Positions 21,022 through 62,377 of a stretch of DNA of 64,000 bases are shown here, piece by piece. The position numbers were made by a program, and so were the translations under genes. Source of the stretch: Marinobacterium sp. (GTDB lineage Bacteria > Pseudomonadota > Gammaproteobacteria > Pseudomonadales > Balneatricaceae); NCBI GenBank assembly GCA_030602245.1, contig JAUWAC010000004.1, positions 62,001 to 126,000 on the forward strand, in the 5' to 3' direction. Position 1 is the stretch's first letter. Each line of letters opens with the position of its first letter. Below the pieces are notes generated by a model, which had not been told where the DNA came from, did not search any database, and was given only the letters and a program-made list of their open reading frames with translations.

Positions 21022-21098
21022 TGGGGTGGATGATGGGGCTTGAACCCACGACCGCCGGAATCACAATCCGGAGCTCTGCCAACTGAGCTACATCCACC
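21022..21098 (-). tRNA. tRNA-His(GTG), copy 2
   Basis: Full cloverleaf on the minus strand with the extra 5' G(-1) typical of tRNA-His, anticodon GTG in a TTGTGAT loop, a GGTTCAAGC T-loop and an encoded CCA. Its 77 nt are identical to the copy at 21235-21311. It is the last of four tRNAs in a run with tRNA-Arg, tRNA-His and tRNA-Leu. Confidence 0.97.
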
Positions 21099-21111
21099 AC
21101 AATGTTGGGAA

Positions 21112-21196
21112 TGGTGCGGGAGGAGAGACTCGAACTCTCACGCCTTGCGGCACCGGAACCTAAATCCGGCGTGTATACCAATTTCACCACTCCCGC
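21112..21196 (-). tRNA. tRNA-Leu(TAG)
   Basis: An 85-nt class II tRNA with a long variable arm (GTGCCGCAAGGCGT), anticodon loop TTTAGGT (anticodon TAG), the GGTTCGAGTC-like T-arm and an encoded CCA. It closely matches E. coli tRNA-Leu(UAG). It lies between the two tRNA-His copies. Confidence 0.97.
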
Positions 21197-21234
21197 GACA
21201 TGACAGCCTGCCTGTCACGAGGATATGAGAGGAA

Positions 21235-21311
21235 TGGGGTGGATGATGGGGCTTGAACCCACGACCGCCGGAATCACAATCCGGAGCTCTGCCAACTGAG
21301 CTACATCCACC
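21235..21311 (-). tRNA. tRNA-His(GTG), copy 1
   Basis: Identical in all 77 bases to the downstream tRNA-His, including the G(-1), anticodon GTG and encoded CCA. The duplication within one operon is a known pseudomonad arrangement and probably raises His-tRNA dosage. Confidence 0.97.
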
Positions 21312-21387
21312 ATAACCTCTTTGTACTCACCGGACTGCCTGCGCTGCCATACGACACCACAGACGCTCCCGAGGGAGCCGTTGCAAG

Positions 21388-21464
21388 TGGCGCGCCCGGC
21401 AGGGCTCGAACCTGCAACCTACGGCTTAGAAGGCCGTTGCTCTATCCGGTTGAGCTACGGGCGC
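21388..21464 (-). tRNA. tRNA-Arg(TCT)
   Basis: A 77-nt cloverleaf with anticodon loop CTTCTAA (anticodon TCT, reading AGA/AGG), GCGCCCG acceptor stem and encoded CCA; very close to E. coli argU. It is the first gene of the four-tRNA run and follows a strong promoter at 21521-21549. Confidence 0.97.
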
Positions 21465-27673: not shown

Positions 27674-27739
27674 GGTATCGCGGTCAATGAAAATTGCGGG
27701 GCGCATAGTATACACGCCCCGCCAACGCTTGACTGCCGA

Positions 27740-28486
27740 TCAGACGGTCAGCGTATCGATCAGGTCGATCATGAACTCGGTCTGCTCCTCGCTCATGCGC
27801 TCCCAACCGTTGATTGCCATGGATTCGAGGACACCGGCTCCCTTCTCGTCCTCGTGCATCGTCAGCAGCTTGCTCTGTAGCTCGTCAAACCGCGGTTGCA
27901 GCTCGGGTCCGACCAGCAGCGCGTGATGCACGACGCTGATTTGCGAGCTGACCAGCACGCGCATCTGCTTGCGAATCAAATCAGACAGCTCAAGGAAGCC
28001 GTCCTTGAGGAAGAAACCGACATCGGCCTCGCCCCGCAGCAGCGCCTTCGCAATCAGGATATAGCTGTCATACTCGCGCTGAGTGATGTTGGACGCGTCC
28101 AGATCCGCCGGCTCGAGCATGATCATGCCAATGGTGTGAACATCCGGGTCGGCCGTCGTGGCCAGCCGCAGACCCGGCATGAGATCTTCCACCTTCTGCG
28201 CAGCACTGTCGGCCGGCACAGCAATGAGCGCCTCATCACGCTTTTTGGCCGGCCGCGCCACAGCCTTGAACCCCATTTCACGCACCAGCATCGCGGCATC
28301 GTAGGGGTTGGCATAGATCAGGTCGACCTTGCCGGCACGAATGTCCGCCCGCTGCGCCTCGAAGCTGTCGTACAGCTCGAGATGGATATCGGTGCCAAGC
28401 TGACGCTGCATCCAGGTATTGAAGTAGAACCAGCCGGACATGTGATCCGGCGCGAAATCGGGGCTGACAGTAAAGTTGAATGGCAT
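27740..28486 (-). CDS. Leaderless PhnD-like periplasmic-binding-protein fold protein
   Basis: A 248-aa protein resembling phosphate/phosphonate (PhnD) binding proteins: an early SPDF.P..M, FEAQRADIRAGKVDLIYANPYDA near residue 45, and FLKDGFLELSDL. It starts MPFNFTVSP straight after an AGGAG, with no signal peptide or lipobox, so it should stay in the cytoplasm. There is no ABC permease or ATPase nearby. It may therefore be a ligand sensor rather than a transport component. It is the last of six tightly spaced genes, 9 bp after the PAS gene. Confidence 0.8.
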   Translation of the reverse strand: MPFNFTVSPDFAPDHMSGWFYFNTWMQRQLGTDIHLELYDSFEAQRADIRAGKVDLIYANPYDAAMLVREMGFKAVARPAKKRDEALIAVPADSAAQKVEDLMPGLRLATTADPDVHTIGMIMLEPADLDASNITQREYDSYILIAKALLRGEADVGFFLKDGFLELSDLIRKQMRVLVSSQISVVHHALLVGPELQPRFDELQSKLLTMHEDEKGAGVLESMAINGWERMSEEQTEFMIDLIDTLTV

Positions 28487-28495
28487 CCCTGGCTC

Positions 28496-28957
28496 CTACT
28501 TCAATGTGGCGTAAAGGGCTTCGCTCTCAGCGATTTTGCTGCGCGACGGCTTGCGGCGCACCGAGGTGTAGCCGACGAGCTTACCCTGGCGGATGTTCGG
28601 GATCACAGTGGCCTTGACCCAGTAAAAACGGCCATCCTTGCGCAGGTTCTTGACGTAACCCTGCCACTTCTTGCCGCTCTGCACCGTCTCCCACAGACCC
28701 TGAAAGGCCACGGCAGGCATATCCGGATGGCGCAGGATGTTGTGATTGGTACCGATCAGCTCTTCACGGGAATACGCCGACATCTCGATAAACGCCTGAT
28801 TCGCGTGTGTGATAATCCCCTGCGGATCGGTGCGCGAGACGATCAGCTTGCCGTCCGGATAAGGCACCTCCTCGTCAAGGATCGTCGCGGTACGTTCGCT
28901 GCCGTCGTAATACCGGATCAGCACCTCGCGGGCTGATCCGCTGTTCTGTTCGGGCAT
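28496..28957 (-). CDS. Stand-alone Aer-type PAS domain protein
   Basis: A 153-aa protein made of one PAS domain (about 30-135). It carries the Aer segments ITHANQAFIEMSAYSREEL, HNILRHPDMP and KNLRKDGRFYWVKA, and the C-terminal ESEALYATLK also resembles the Aer linker. In Aer this domain binds FAD and senses redox or oxygen. Here the membrane, HAMP and methyl-accepting domains are missing. FAD binding is inferred. It is the fifth gene of the operon, with GGGGGAG before the ATG. Confidence 0.85.
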   Translation of the reverse strand: MPEQNSGSAREVLIRYYDGSERTATILDEEVPYPDGKLIVSRTDPQGIITHANQAFIEMSAYSREELIGTNHNILRHPDMPAVAFQGLWETVQSGKKWQGYVKNLRKDGRFYWVKATVIPNIRQGKLVGYTSVRRKPSRSKIAESEALYATLK

Positions 28958-28995
28958 GATCTCCCCCTGTGCAATCTTGCGTCAGCGTGCGTGGA

Positions 28996-29358
28996 TCAGA
29001 GCACCTTGCCGATCGACTCGGCGGCACGTTTGACGTCGAGGAAAATAAGGCCGAGTCGCGCATTAGGCTTGGCAACGACGGTCAGCACCGACTCCGCATT
29101 GGCATGCGTCATCAGAATGTAGCCCTGATCACCCTTGACCAGCACCTGCTCAAGCTCGCCCCGCGCCAGCTCGCGCGCCGTGCGCTCCCCGAGCGACAGA
29201 ATGGCAGCACTCATCGCCCCCACCCGGTCCTCATCCATGCCGGCCGGCAGCAGCGCATCGATGACCAGACCGTCAGTCGAGATAACGGCGCAGGCCTCAA
29301 TCTCGGTCGAAGTGCCGTTAAGGTCACGCAAAATCGAATTCAACATTTCCGCGCGCAT
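28996..29358 (-). CDS. Roadblock/LC7 domain protein
   Basis: A 120-aa single-domain Roadblock/LC7 protein: ILRDLNGTSTEIEACAVISTDGLVIDALLP, then a helix with ILSLGERTARELARGELEQVLV, and GYILMTHANAESVLTVVAKPNARLGLIFLDVKRAAE. In Myxococcus MglB and similar systems this fold dimerises and acts as a GAP or scaffold for a small Ras-like GTPase. No such GTPase is encoded in this operon or window. AAGGAG precedes the ATG. Confidence 0.9.
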   Translation of the reverse strand: MRAEMLNSILRDLNGTSTEIEACAVISTDGLVIDALLPAGMDEDRVGAMSAAILSLGERTARELARGELEQVLVKGDQGYILMTHANAESVLTVVAKPNARLGLIFLDVKRAAESIGKVL

Positions 29359-29384
29359 GAAAATCTCCTTTTCCGCAGCGAGTC

Positions 29385-30035
29385 TTAATGATCCAGATAG
29401 CGCCGGATCAGAACAGAAGTCAGGTCGACAAAGGGTTGCCGGTTCAGGTACGGCATACCCTCGATGATGAGCAGGAAACGTTCCCGCCCCACGGTAATCA
29501 CCCAGAAGCCCAGATCACTCTGACCGACCGAGTTGACCAGCGCCCAGGAACAGCCATACAGCTCCAGCTGGGAATTGATCAGTTGTTCGTGCCGCTCGCT
29601 GAGCAGCATCACATCCGCCGCCAGGCCCGCGACCGCTTCTTCCTCTTCCGGACTGAAGCCCTTGTGCGCGAGCGAGAAGCCCTGCTCATCGGCGAGCAGC
29701 ACCTTACCTTCGCCAAGCGGTGCGATCAGCTCCGGCAGCACCACTTCAAGCGGGCCGCTCACGACCTCGTTCGGCGTCGGCACCAGCTCGAGAAAATTGC
29801 GCGTGCACATATCGTCAAGCATCGCCATCGCACCGTCGGCATCGCGCCCGGTGAGCTTCTCCATCAGCGCCGGCATGTACGGTACGGGCGTATCGGCACT
29901 GAGCAGCTGCAGCAGCAGCGCGCGCATCTCGTCGGGTTCACTGCTGAACGTGGCGTAATAGGCCCCCGCCGGCAGCACCTGGAAGTAAAGCGTCTCATCA
30001 GCCTGGCCAAGAGGTTTGCTGGATGGAGCGCCCAT
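29385..30035 (-). CDS. Roadblock-like protein with N-terminal helical domain
   Basis: A 216-aa protein with no certain family. The first 95 residues are helical, with a winged-helix flavour (LLQLLSADTPVPYMPALMEKL, then MAMLDDMCTRNFLELV). The C-terminal half follows a roadblock-like strand-helix pattern: GKVLLADEQGFSLAHKGFSPEEEEAVAGLAADVMLL, then FWVITVGRERFLLIIEG. It could pair with the 120-aa roadblock protein encoded 26 bp downstream. It has AAGGAG before the ATG. The roadblock assignment here is by pattern and needs structural confirmation. Confidence 0.7.
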   Translation of the reverse strand: MGAPSSKPLGQADETLYFQVLPAGAYYATFSSEPDEMRALLLQLLSADTPVPYMPALMEKLTGRDADGAMAMLDDMCTRNFLELVPTPNEVVSGPLEVVLPELIAPLGEGKVLLADEQGFSLAHKGFSPEEEEAVAGLAADVMLLSERHEQLINSQLELYGCSWALVNSVGQSDLGFWVITVGRERFLLIIEGMPYLNRQPFVDLTSVLIRRYLDH

Positions 30036-30046
30036 GCGTTATCTCC

Positions 30047-31156
30047 TTATTTACGCTCGAATAGATCGACCGCATCAGCAGCGGCCAAAAACGAAAACAC
30101 GTAGCGTTGAGGAATTTTCAGACTCCGACTGACATCGATCGGACGATGGGGAGCCTGTTGCCAGAGCTCGGCCACCCGCTCCGCCTGAGGCGGCAGCAGG
30201 AAGCGGGACAGATTGCTCACCGGCTTGAGCTGATAACGCCCGGCCGGATCGAGATAATCGGGCACACGTCCGCGCGTCGTGAACAGCGCCAGCAGCCAGA
30301 TCATTTCGTCCCGCGGCGCCTGCGCGGCCGCTGGTACCGCCCCCTCGCGCAGCTGGCAGCCCAGCTCACCCGGCCCGAAGCGGCTGGCCGCCATCTGCAG
30401 CAGAAAATCCGGTTCCAGGTCATAGGTAAAGCTGTCGCTTTGCGGGAAGTAGATGAACTGCCCGGGAATGCCGGTCACCTGTACCGGCTGCTGTGCTTCG
30501 CGGGCCAGTTTGACGGCGGTACGCGCCTGGGTCAGGAACTGCCCTTCCAGTGACAGGGCCAACCGGGCACGGTCCGCTGCTGCAGAAGGGTCCAGATCGG
30601 GCAGCGAGCCACACACGTGGCGCAACAGCACCCCTTTCTCGGTATCACTCCATCGCAGCAGCAGCGCCTCGGCCGGCGACTGCTGTGGCCGGCGGACCGA
30701 CGTGTGCCGGGCTGGCTTGACCGTTGCCGCCGCCTGATTACTGGCGATCAGCGAGCGCAATTCGGATGGTGCCATTTTCAGCCCGGATCCGGAGGCTCGG
30801 GCCGCCTCGCTGGTCGCTTCACGCGCCTCACGCCGCCTTTTCAGCTCGCGGGCCAGCGTGCGCAGCGTCTGACACAGCGAGGCGATACTCAGGGGACGGC
30901 GTACTTCCAGCATCCCCTCCGGCGCCGGCAGGTCACCTGTTACGGCGACGACCGGGCAGGATTCGCGGCTGGCGTACCAGTCGAGGAAGCGTTTGCGCTC
31001 CACCTCGGTCTCCAGATTGACCAGCAGAGCGTGCGCGCGCTCCGGGGTATCGAGCGCCAGGCCCGGATTGTCGGAGCCGGCAAAAAAGACTTCGAGCAGA
31101 TTCTGCTCGCGCGCGGGGAAGCCGATCAGCGCAATGGTTCCGGCAGCTCTGCTCAT
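30047..31156 (-). CDS. Pseudo-receiver protein with C-terminal helical domain
   Basis: A 369-aa cytoplasmic protein. The N-terminal 100 residues look like a response-regulator receiver fold (IALIGF start, PVVAVTGD, then EVRRPLSIASLCQTL), but the phospho-acceptor position reads ALLVNLET, with Asn rather than Asp, so phosphorylation is unlikely. A variable linker follows, then a region with IPGQFIYFPQSDSFTYDLEPDFLLQMA, and a C-terminal helical segment (VSRSLKIPQRYVFSFLAAADAVDLF) resembling a winged helix. Its start overlaps the previous gene by 4 bp. No close family is recognised. Confidence 0.75.
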   Translation of the reverse strand: MSRAAGTIALIGFPAREQNLLEVFFAGSDNPGLALDTPERAHALLVNLETEVERKRFLDWYASRESCPVVAVTGDLPAPEGMLEVRRPLSIASLCQTLRTLARELKRRREAREATSEAARASGSGLKMAPSELRSLIASNQAAATVKPARHTSVRRPQQSPAEALLLRWSDTEKGVLLRHVCGSLPDLDPSAAADRARLALSLEGQFLTQARTAVKLAREAQQPVQVTGIPGQFIYFPQSDSFTYDLEPDFLLQMAASRFGPGELGCQLREGAVPAAAQAPRDEMIWLLALFTTRGRVPDYLDPAGRYQLKPVSNLSRFLLPPQAERVAELWQQAPHRPIDVSRSLKIPQRYVFSFLAAADAVDLFERK

Positions 31157-31611
31157 CGACGCGCCGCCAGTGAGGGCAGACCGCCGTTACTGAGAATCGA
31201 CTCGCCCTGCTCGACTTTGCGCAGCGGCGCGAGATCACCGCACAGCAGCGCTGTCTCAAACAGCTTCAGATGGTCCTTGCGCAGCAGCGGGCCGGACTGC
31301 TCCAGCATCCGGTTCAGCAGATAACGACCACGCCCTTTGAGCACCAGCATCAGATCGACCAGCGCCCCCGTCAGATGAGCTGACTCGCGGGTCTGAATCG
31401 CCAGATAGACGCGGCGAATGTGATTGCGCAGCTGGGACGGCCGTGCCGCCACCCGGCGCTGCAGATAGCGCAGGACAATCAAGTGCTCGTCGCCGCGATA
31501 GATCAGATGCGGATCTTCCTGGATACGAAACAGTTCAAGCTGACGTCTGACCTGATAGCGGCCGGTCGCGTCGGTGACGGGCGCATGCTGATCGACAAGA
31601 GGCATGTTCAT
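31153..31611 (-). CDS. Helical protein of unknown function, first gene of the roadblock operon
   Basis: A 152-aa protein that I do not recognise. It is arginine- and leucine-rich and mostly helical, with no signal or membrane segment; a helical core (LRNHIRRVYLAIQTRESAHLTGALVDLML) is the best-defined part. The ATG at 31611 follows GGAGGGATTCC with good spacing. The last codons overlap the next gene (ATGA). It is divergent from acnB. Confidence 0.7.
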   Translation of the reverse strand: MNMPLVDQHAPVTDATGRYQVRRQLELFRIQEDPHLIYRGDEHLIVLRYLQRRVAARPSQLRNHIRRVYLAIQTRESAHLTGALVDLMLVLKGRGRYLLNRMLEQSGPLLRKDHLKLFETALLCGDLAPLRKVEQGESILSNGGLPSLAARR

Positions 31612-31648
31612 GGAATCCCTCCCCTTTCCAAACGGGCGTATGTTTCCT

Positions 31649-31678
31649 GTTATACGGGAGCGACGGGAGCCTGCGCAA
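31649..31678 (-). promoter_or_regulatory. putative promoter of the roadblock operon
   Basis: On the minus strand TTGCGC (31673-31678), an 18-bp spacer and TATAAC (31649-31654), ending about 38 bp before the first start codon. Confidence 0.4.
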
Positions 31679-31754
31679 ACCTTTCAGAACCTTTTGTTGA
31701 CCCGCATCAAGAGCACTTTTGCGCGCGGCTAACCCCAAAGTCTAACGCTTGAAA

Positions 31755-31793: not shown

Positions 31794-31898
31794 ATTCGCG
31801 TCGCCAAACACCAATCGATACCTAATCGATACGCCGTCGGGCGAGCGCGTGACGACGCAAGCCAGCGCCCGGTGGTTACAACAGATGAGGGCCATGTC

Positions 31899-61542: not shown

Positions 61543-62377
61543 CGAGGATGTATTGCGGCAGCGCGAAGCAGCCAGCGTGCACCTGCGGGTTATAGAAACG
61601 GGTACGGATCCCGCTGTCACGATAGCGCTGCTGCAGGATCGCCGGATCCGGCGCGCGCAGGGCGCCGTCATCGCTGGCCCAGGCAAATGTCATCAGACCG
61701 CCGGCGTAGGTGGGCACAGCCGCGCTGTAGAACGTCTGATCGGCAAACAGAGGGCCGAGCCGGCGCGCCGTCGTCGCCACTTCGTCCAGTTGCAGAAAGG
61801 CCACACCGTTCTGCGCCACGAAAATACCGCCGGGGTTCAGGCAGCGCTTGCAGCCAGCGTAGAAGCGACTACTGAACAGCACCTCACCCGGACCGACCGG
61901 ATCGGTGCAATCCGAGATGATCACATCAAAGCGGGCCTGGGTTTGCGTGACATACTCGACGCCGTCGGCGATGACGATATCGACGCGCGGATCATCAAAC
62001 GCACCGGCCGAGTGGTTGGGCAGGTAACGCTTGCACATCTCGATCACCGCAGCATCAATCTCCACCTGCGTCACCGACACCACACCGGGGTGCTTGAGCA
62101 CTTCGCGCAGCATGCCACCGTCGCCACCCCCGATGATAAGCACCCGACGCGCCGCGCCATGCGCCAGCAACGGCACGTGGGTCAGCATTTCGTGATAGAT
62201 GAACTCATCCCGTTCGGTGGTCTGCACAATGCCGTCCAGCGCCATGACACGCCCGAAGCTCGCATTGCGGAAGATCAGCAGCTCCTGGTGCTCGGTACGA
62301 TGCTCGAACAGCACCTCATCGATGCTGAAGGCCTGACCGTAGCCCGGATGCAGTTTCTCAACGAAAGTCGTCGTCAT
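61523..62377 (-). CDS. speE: Spermidine synthase
   Basis: Transfers the aminopropyl group of decarboxylated SAM to putrescine. [17 protein letters not shown] is the cofactor-binding loop, [14 protein letters not shown] holds the catalytic Asp, and [15 protein letters not shown] is conserved. I start at the ATG at 62377 (284 aa). It overlaps speD by 20 bp, so SAM decarboxylation and aminopropyl transfer are encoded together. Confidence 0.96.

Follow-up and report, generated by a model that had tools for sequence, protein, structure and literature searches.

A six-gene roadblock operon in Marinobacterium and its relatives, most likely derived from a Group 3 MglA system

The six genes and their linkage

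We analysed a window of 64,000 nucleotides (positions 62,001 to 126,000 of contig JAUWAC010000004.1, assembly GCA_030602245.1) from a Marinobacterium metagenome-assembled genome (MAG), and within it a minus-strand operon of six genes, A to F, that encodes two roadblock proteins. A first-pass annotation of this DNA had described six co-directional genes separated by −4 to 38 bp; re-reading of the window confirmed that the operon exists in that form, the successive gaps from A to F being −4, 11, 26, 38 and 9 bp. Gene A (31153..31611) encodes 152 amino acids (aa), which correspond to the N-terminal part of a protein family whose members in GTPase-bearing relatives are mostly 231–295 aa long and have a TPR-like C-terminal half.

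The 369-aa product of gene B (30047..31156) comprises a pseudo-receiver, a linker of variable length and a C-terminal region that ends in a winged-helix-like part. Fold comparison with VIA-align, which covered residues 2–124 of B and 93–215 of C, supported the receiver fold, and Asn47 occupies the acceptor position, in agreement with the annotation; helices 325–362, which lie beyond the compared part of B, are compatible with a winged helix. The product of gene C (29385..30035; 216 aa) has an N-terminal part that looks winged-helix-like in the secondary structure of the model, followed by a roadblock domain at about residues 93–216, for which profile comparison gave weak support and the predicted structure settled the fold. 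Gene D (28996..29358; 120 aa), the best conserved of the six genes, encodes a Roadblock/LC7 protein of the MglB type by Pfam, so that the roadblock-like C and true Roadblock/LC7 D of the annotation both stand. D combines the roadblock fold with the Asp-Gly pair conserved in MglB, Asp29-Gly30 being present in 51/51 family proteins (window included), in 61/61 from GTPase-bearing loci and in 9/9 other D proteins.

Gene E (28496..28957; 153 aa) encodes a stand-alone PAS protein whose closest solved structure is the PAS domain of Aer (PDB 8dik, E 6.8e-41). Unlike the Aer aerotaxis receptor, it is a free protein with no methyl-accepting part, just as annotated; by its sequence match it is an Aer-type PAS protein, and residue conservation suggests that it may bind FAD. 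Gene F (27740..28486; 248 aa) encodes a PhnD-like protein of PF12974, a family shared with ArrX, its best solved relative (E 1.5e-4). It starts with MPFNFTVSPDF, and similar starts in 12 aligned sequences (window included) show, by eye, no signal peptide, as the annotation had noted; nor is there an ABC transporter gene inside the operon. F thus differs from ArrX/PhnD-type binding proteins in having neither the signal peptide nor the linked transporter of a periplasmic PhnD. At two loci (L119:8708-9445 and L180:7408-8142) a second, divergent PhnD-like protein is encoded between C and D, and at L178:5706-6501 (genome G130) F occupies two overlapping frames, which, like the split B and E of locus L088, are broken genes or assembly errors.

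A search of 84,980 species genomes gave 400 confirmed stretches with a gene for a D relative, and the best 80 of these 400 were used; the resulting 50 + 30 loci are therefore closest relatives and not a random sample. The first 50 (L043–L092) were treated as one family on the basis of names and the tree described below. They come from Marinobacterium, Neptuniibacter, Amphritea, Pontibacterium, Motiliproteus, Neptunomonas and Nitrincola, plus MAGs; the family of the window in GTDB we take to be Nitrincolaceae, and NCBI taxonomy places Marinobacterium in Oceanospirillaceae. The next 30 represent Thiothrix, Leucothrix, Cocleimonas, Methylothermaceae and further MAGs, among them L106 from the Pseudomonadales. 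In 369 genomes sampled across the class, the D profile gave a roadblock match in 56, and there were 41 strong D matches (>150 bits, window excluded), from which 40 loci were fetched (G355 was omitted); this set represents strong matches, weaker roadblock matches lying outside it, and four of its loci (L190, L198, L207 and L212) have few genes, being cut or holding D nearly alone.

The C protein was found in 22 of 57 searched genomes (the window's included), 21 of these in the window's family, and D in exactly the same 22. In all 21 stretches around C from other genomes B, C and D occur together; E and F are missing from one of them, L041. In L042 tblastn did not detect A; a profile search later picked it up in L106, a contig equal in length. 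Among the 50 family loci, B, C and D are present in all, E in 49, A in 48 and F in 47, and the order A-B-C-D-E-F is exact in 44. The deviating loci L074, L083 and L085 are near contig ends or partial, L081 has no E or F, an over-long frame blurs the order in L049, and in L088 B and E are each split in two frames (they were scored as present, with the B tail left unjudged). The co-occurrence of the six genes, which the annotation had proposed to test, is thus borne out among the closest relatives and, far from being unlinked in other genomes, which it had named as a ground for rejection, the genes stay linked across the family.

E and F form a pair in 73 of the 75 loci having E: 47 family loci have both and a further two have E without F, both are present in 12 of the 30 next-closest loci and in 14 of the class-wide set of 40, and F never occurs without E. 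Searches for F gave a match in 19 of the 40 D-positive genomes, adjoining D in 15 and elsewhere in four weaker cases. A protoglobin-like gene adjoins D in six of the 40 class-wide loci (L181:7395-7958, L183:7404-7994, L195:6366-6959 and L204:7524-8189, together with L193 and L201), five of these having no E-F; no such gene adjoins D in the remaining 80 loci, and three scanned products match PF11563 (E 8e-24, 2e-20 and 4e-23). Aer and protoglobin function in redox/oxygen sensing. Because the flavin PAS protein and protoglobin are both such sensors, an oxygen or redox input to the system is suggested.

The GTPase gene of related operons

Outside the family, the gene order in other gammaproteobacteria is A-B-[small Ras-like GTPase]-C-D(-E-F). 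In 29 of the 30 next-closest loci, B and C are separated by a gene for a GTPase of ∼180 aa, the other locus (L120) having D alone. In the class-wide set it stands beside B/C in 32 of 40 loci; the frames of L211 and L214 are degenerate, and in L194, L199 and L206 it lies inside frames of ∼500 aa. The in-operon GTPases carry the motifs GPVGAGKT and GTPGQERF, a G4 motif T-x-x-D without the usual lysine, and DAR at G5; that of L106 matches ATP_bind_1/Ras in Pfam, and the profile of the GTPase family matches eukaryotic Sec4/Rab structures. Whole-genome searches gave a GTPase match somewhere in 34 of the 40 D-positive genomes (the window's included), weakly in G122 and G357, and none in G000, G157, G202, G253, G373 and G421, the last of which is fragmented into ∼670 contigs.

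In the window, the site that holds the GTPase gene in relatives outside the family is the 11-bp B–C junction (30036..30046, minus strand), and at this junction such a gene is missing from all 50 loci of the family. We placed the loci on a midpoint-rooted tree of concatenated C and D with 91 tips, from which 19 loci had been removed by hand for thinning, together with loci without both genes above threshold (L213, having no C, is hence absent). The 35 tips of the family all fall into a single clade (support 99), surrounded by operons that have the GTPase. A scaffold of roadblock proteins with no GTPase in its past would account for the family's 0/50, but the family nests among GTPase-bearing operons of the same gene order, which indicates that the gene was lost and not originally absent; we find a scaffold of that kind hardly credible, and under midpoint rooting the GTPase-free design was ruled out as the original state. 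The annotation's picture of a system designed without a GTPase accordingly gives way to one of descent from a small-GTPase system (Group 3 MglA) whose GTPase was lost in the family.

Two further GTPase-less lineages (L201 with L204, and L180) are placed elsewhere on the tree, apart from the family clade, so that at least three losses are indicated. The family f89 shows GTPase decay in progress: two of its genomes (L211 and L214) have a GTPase-like frame from which the G3 motif is gone, and a third (L213) has none. The degenerate frames (L211:1121-1711 and L214:5941-6900) stand beside B and D, and one is fused to an unrelated N-terminal part.

Group 3 MglA systems, found in beta- and gammaproteobacteria including Neisseria and Xanthomonas, are described as a protein with a receiver-like N-terminus, a variable linker and a winged-helix C-terminus, accompanied by MglA and one or two MglB proteins; DAR at G5 is a feature of Groups 2 and 3, GTPGQ at G3 of Groups 2–5, and the combination of GTPGQ, a G4 lacking the usual lysine and DAR is that of Groups 2 and 3 (PMC4316618). 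By motifs and gene order, B, the GTPase of the relatives, C and D match the core of such a system: a receiver-like protein with a variable linker and a putative winged-helix end is shared, as are two roadblock/MglB homologues beside it (D by Pfam, C by predicted structure) and, in the relatives, GTPGQ and DAR. The window differs in having no GTPase, the family in its shortened A and B, and A, E and F are absent from the description in the accessible text of that paper. Because a small Ras-like GTPase is found in the operons of relatives outside the family and in none within it, we regard the window operon as a derivative and not a member of Group 3, most likely one whose GTPase was lost in the family ancestor. 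As to whether the cluster was already characterised, the B–GTPase–C–D core is in print, and the open-licence literature yielded no publication that links A, E, F or protoglobin to Group 3 MglA systems.

Loss of the GTPase has precedents: conservons from which mglA has disappeared are on record, as are orphan MglB proteins (PMC4316618). In the actinobacterial conservons CvnA–D, a roadblock protein is hypothesised to link the sensor with the GTPase and some copies have lost the GTPase; their sensor, however, is a histidine kinase, and the core, in the accessible descriptions, has no receiver-like, PAS-only or PhnD-like protein (PMC13343842, PMC4316618). The group 3 mgl locus of Snodgrassella shares two coupled mglB genes with our operon but has mglA, and the accessible text mentions no PAS or PhnD-like genes there (PMC11112851). 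Set against these texts, losing the GTPase is in itself no novelty, conservons having done so, and what appears new here is the linkage of A, E, F and protoglobin.

Selection and shortening in the remaining genes

A measures 148–190 aa in the family (48 loci), compared with mostly 231–295 aa in 50 GTPase-bearing loci, two of which have a shorter and two a much longer A. The C-terminal half that family A proteins lack matches TPR profiles weakly (TPR_14 in 5 of the 26 members). In M. xanthus the TPR protein SgmX acts with MglA (PMC7519303), and loss of a TPR half alongside loss of the GTPase would therefore make sense. B proteins of the family likewise lack a basic amphipathic C-terminal tail (GLFSRLLKRLLGG-like) that is present in the GTPase-bearing loci having B.

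The ratio of nonsynonymous to synonymous divergence (dN/dS) is far below 1 for all six genes, E and F included, wherever it is finite in nine family pairs; the highest value, 0.158, is that of B, and C without the GTPase has 0.005–0.042. For D it is 0–0.02 in 9/9 family pairs and in the eight of nine GTPase-bearing pairs with a finite value, and D is thus under extreme purifying selection whether the GTPase is present or not. These values bear on the possibility that the remaining genes are a decaying, functionless relic. The loss of the GTPase, of the C-terminal half of A and of the B tail, and the freeing of positions in C, are what a relic would show; dN/dS far below 1 and a gene order kept across 50 loci are not, and we rejected this reading on dN/dS, as very improbable. 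D also has the lowest synonymous divergence (dS) of the operon genes in 9/9 close family pairs (0.03 versus 0.16–0.45 in L060/L061), a feature that is not consistent in GTPase-bearing pairs and that perhaps reflects high expression or RNA constraint.

Two differences in D are fixed in the family (Asn87 for Gly and Glu58 for Asp), and Gln77, Asn156 and Pro179 of C, which hardly vary in GTPase-bearing loci, are freed there. Taken with the strong selection, such fixed and freed positions make the roadblock proteins look adapted rather than decayed. Across 57 GTPase-bearing loci, 44 positions of C are ≥90% conserved. Position 156 is Asn in 54 of the 57, and is the sole one of the 44 to differ in each of the four remaining GTPase-less loci that have C (L180, L201, L204 and L207, where L201 and L204 are one family and the C of L207 is cut by a contig end); it also differs in 49 of 51 family rows. 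Gln77 and Pro179 are freed in the Nitrincolaceae and not in L180, L201 or L204. Because ∼0.2 such columns would be expected by chance for three lineages, on a rough estimate, we treat position 156 as no more than a lead to a convergent footprint of GTPase loss in C.

Signalling, unlinked GTPases and the setting of the operon

The annotation had proposed looking for an MglA-like GTPase elsewhere in the genome. In the window's genome (2.39 Mb in 26 contigs, 90.67% complete) no small Ras-like GTPase of the A7 type was found and no PF03029 match exceeded the cut-off; PF00071 and PF00025 matches lie only inside frames of 329–858 aa. For the family the answer is different: 14 of 21 operon-bearing genomes have an A7-type GTPase elsewhere, in 13 of them in a frame of ∼320–380 aa, a fusion by its length, and in G026 only in a 175-aa form. 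No A7-type GTPase was found in the other seven, namely M. litorale, M. sediminicola, both Nitrincola, Motiliproteus coralliicola, Amphritea opalescens and the window assembly. Seventeen fusions fall with one unfused relative in an 18-tip clade (support 99), which is not adjacent to the GTPase that L106 has in its operon. Alignment by hhalign puts their C-terminal part in the same register as a roadblock, weakly (pairwise E 0.01, probability 4%), and Pfam scans of three fusions gave no roadblock match. At the fusion loci (L131–L141, L221 and L222) several fusions are followed by an overlapping open reading frame (ORF) of 107–124 aa, and some stand in tandem pairs. In G032, which has the operon and no A7-type GTPase, a Ras-domain match of 55.5 bits (G032:C5:1178156-1178611) lies in an 873-aa frame that may be a large multidomain GTPase.

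We propose that the ancestral switch consisted of B, a small Ras-like GTPase, the roadblock proteins C and D and a helical/TPR protein A, with E (flavin PAS) and F (cytoplasmic PhnD-like) as its sensory front end. The GTPase gene would have been deleted between B and C in the ancestor of the Nitrincolaceae; the TPR-like half of A and the amphipathic tail of B would have gone as well, with C, D, E and F staying under strong selection. In the window organism, presumably GTPase-free, the redox state sensed by E and a small ligand bound by F would change the engagement of B by D/C, and B would relay the output. The weakest step is the output itself, which by analogy with MglA/MglB systems would most likely be surface or pilus behaviour; motility or attachment is a guess by analogy with Snodgrassella, where a mutated orphan mglB changes how colonies spread and how the gut is colonized, although mglA is retained in the genome (a 2024 report; PMC11112851). 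In 2014, Wuichet and Sogaard-Andersen had stated that no orphan MglB was yet characterised (PMC4316618).

On balance we lean towards this explanation as a whole, that is, remnant but active Group 3-type signalling that senses redox and is now GTPase-free in the window organism. The cytoplasmic sensory complex that the annotation envisaged, with redox and PhnD-like inputs on a roadblock scaffold, fits the linkage of E and F; its construction without a GTPase does not survive. Several observations weigh against our explanation. The incompleteness of the window's genome limits the claim that a GTPase is absent, and the label 'Group 3' comes from motifs and gene order in one paper, not from a tree. 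The GTPase-less loci L180, L201, L204 and L213 keep the B tail, so that loss of the tail need not follow loss of the GTPase. The pilus link is weak, because PilT is present in 11/15 operon-less family genomes as well as in 21/21 operon-bearing ones. Finally, the unlinked GTPase fusion occurs in 13/21 operon-bearing and 0/15 operon-less family genomes (Fisher p ∼9e-5, or ∼6e-5 for any A7-type GTPase, which the 15 also lack, kinship being ignored), so that in much of the family a GTPase could still be at work in trans.

The last point can be taken further: the operon's roadblock proteins might serve the unlinked fusion, which the window would lack merely through incomplete assembly. Six of eight sampled genomes of the window's genus carry the fusion, and D keeps Asp29-Gly30, the Asp of which has been proposed to lie within reach of MglA. 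Yet the seven genomes without such a GTPase keep the operon, M. litorale (rated 100% complete) and the closed M. sediminicola (G012) among them, and the fusions form their own clade, several having small partner ORFs of their own. We consider this alternative unlikely, though it deserves weight. What the operon encodes is most likely a redox-sensing roadblock complex that formerly gated a GTPase and is now either GTPase-free or, in 13 of the 21 family genomes, possibly served by an unlinked GTPase fusion.

More tentatively, and short of an even chance in our judgement, the roadblock proteins may form a hub that links a flavin sensor (swappable for a heme protoglobin), a binding protein and a pseudo-response-regulator, with the GTPase as an optional part shed at least three times. 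Bacterial roadblock proteins are known mainly as regulators of small GTPases; if this reading is true, they can run a signalling circuit without any GTPase. Within one operon type, partly in marine bacteria that have been isolated, the GTPase is present, decaying or absent with D almost unchanged, a natural series that makes roles of roadblock proteins beyond GTPase regulation directly testable. The data also suggest redox/oxygen inputs for Group 3 MglA systems, a group described from Neisseria and Xanthomonas as well (PMC4316618).

Gene F is followed by a terminator-like stem of 12 pairs (27696..27722, minus strand), a consensus match. At the other end, a spacer (31612..31748) separates A from a divergent upstream gene that, from its translation, we take to be acnB, the start of which may be later, near 31898. 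A consensus search of the operon strand found no sigma-70-like promoter for the operon, and the spacer is its probable promoter region. The downstream neighbours are presumably miaE and lpxH. The six best named relatives of the window's D are all from Marinobacterium (98–93% identity). Seven other sampled genomes of the genus measure 3.5–5.6 Mb, compared with 2.39 Mb here, and the window organism is possibly a streamlined lineage. Elsewhere in the window, 21022–21464 holds a tRNA cluster (His, Leu, His, Arg) whose two tRNA-His genes share an anticodon.

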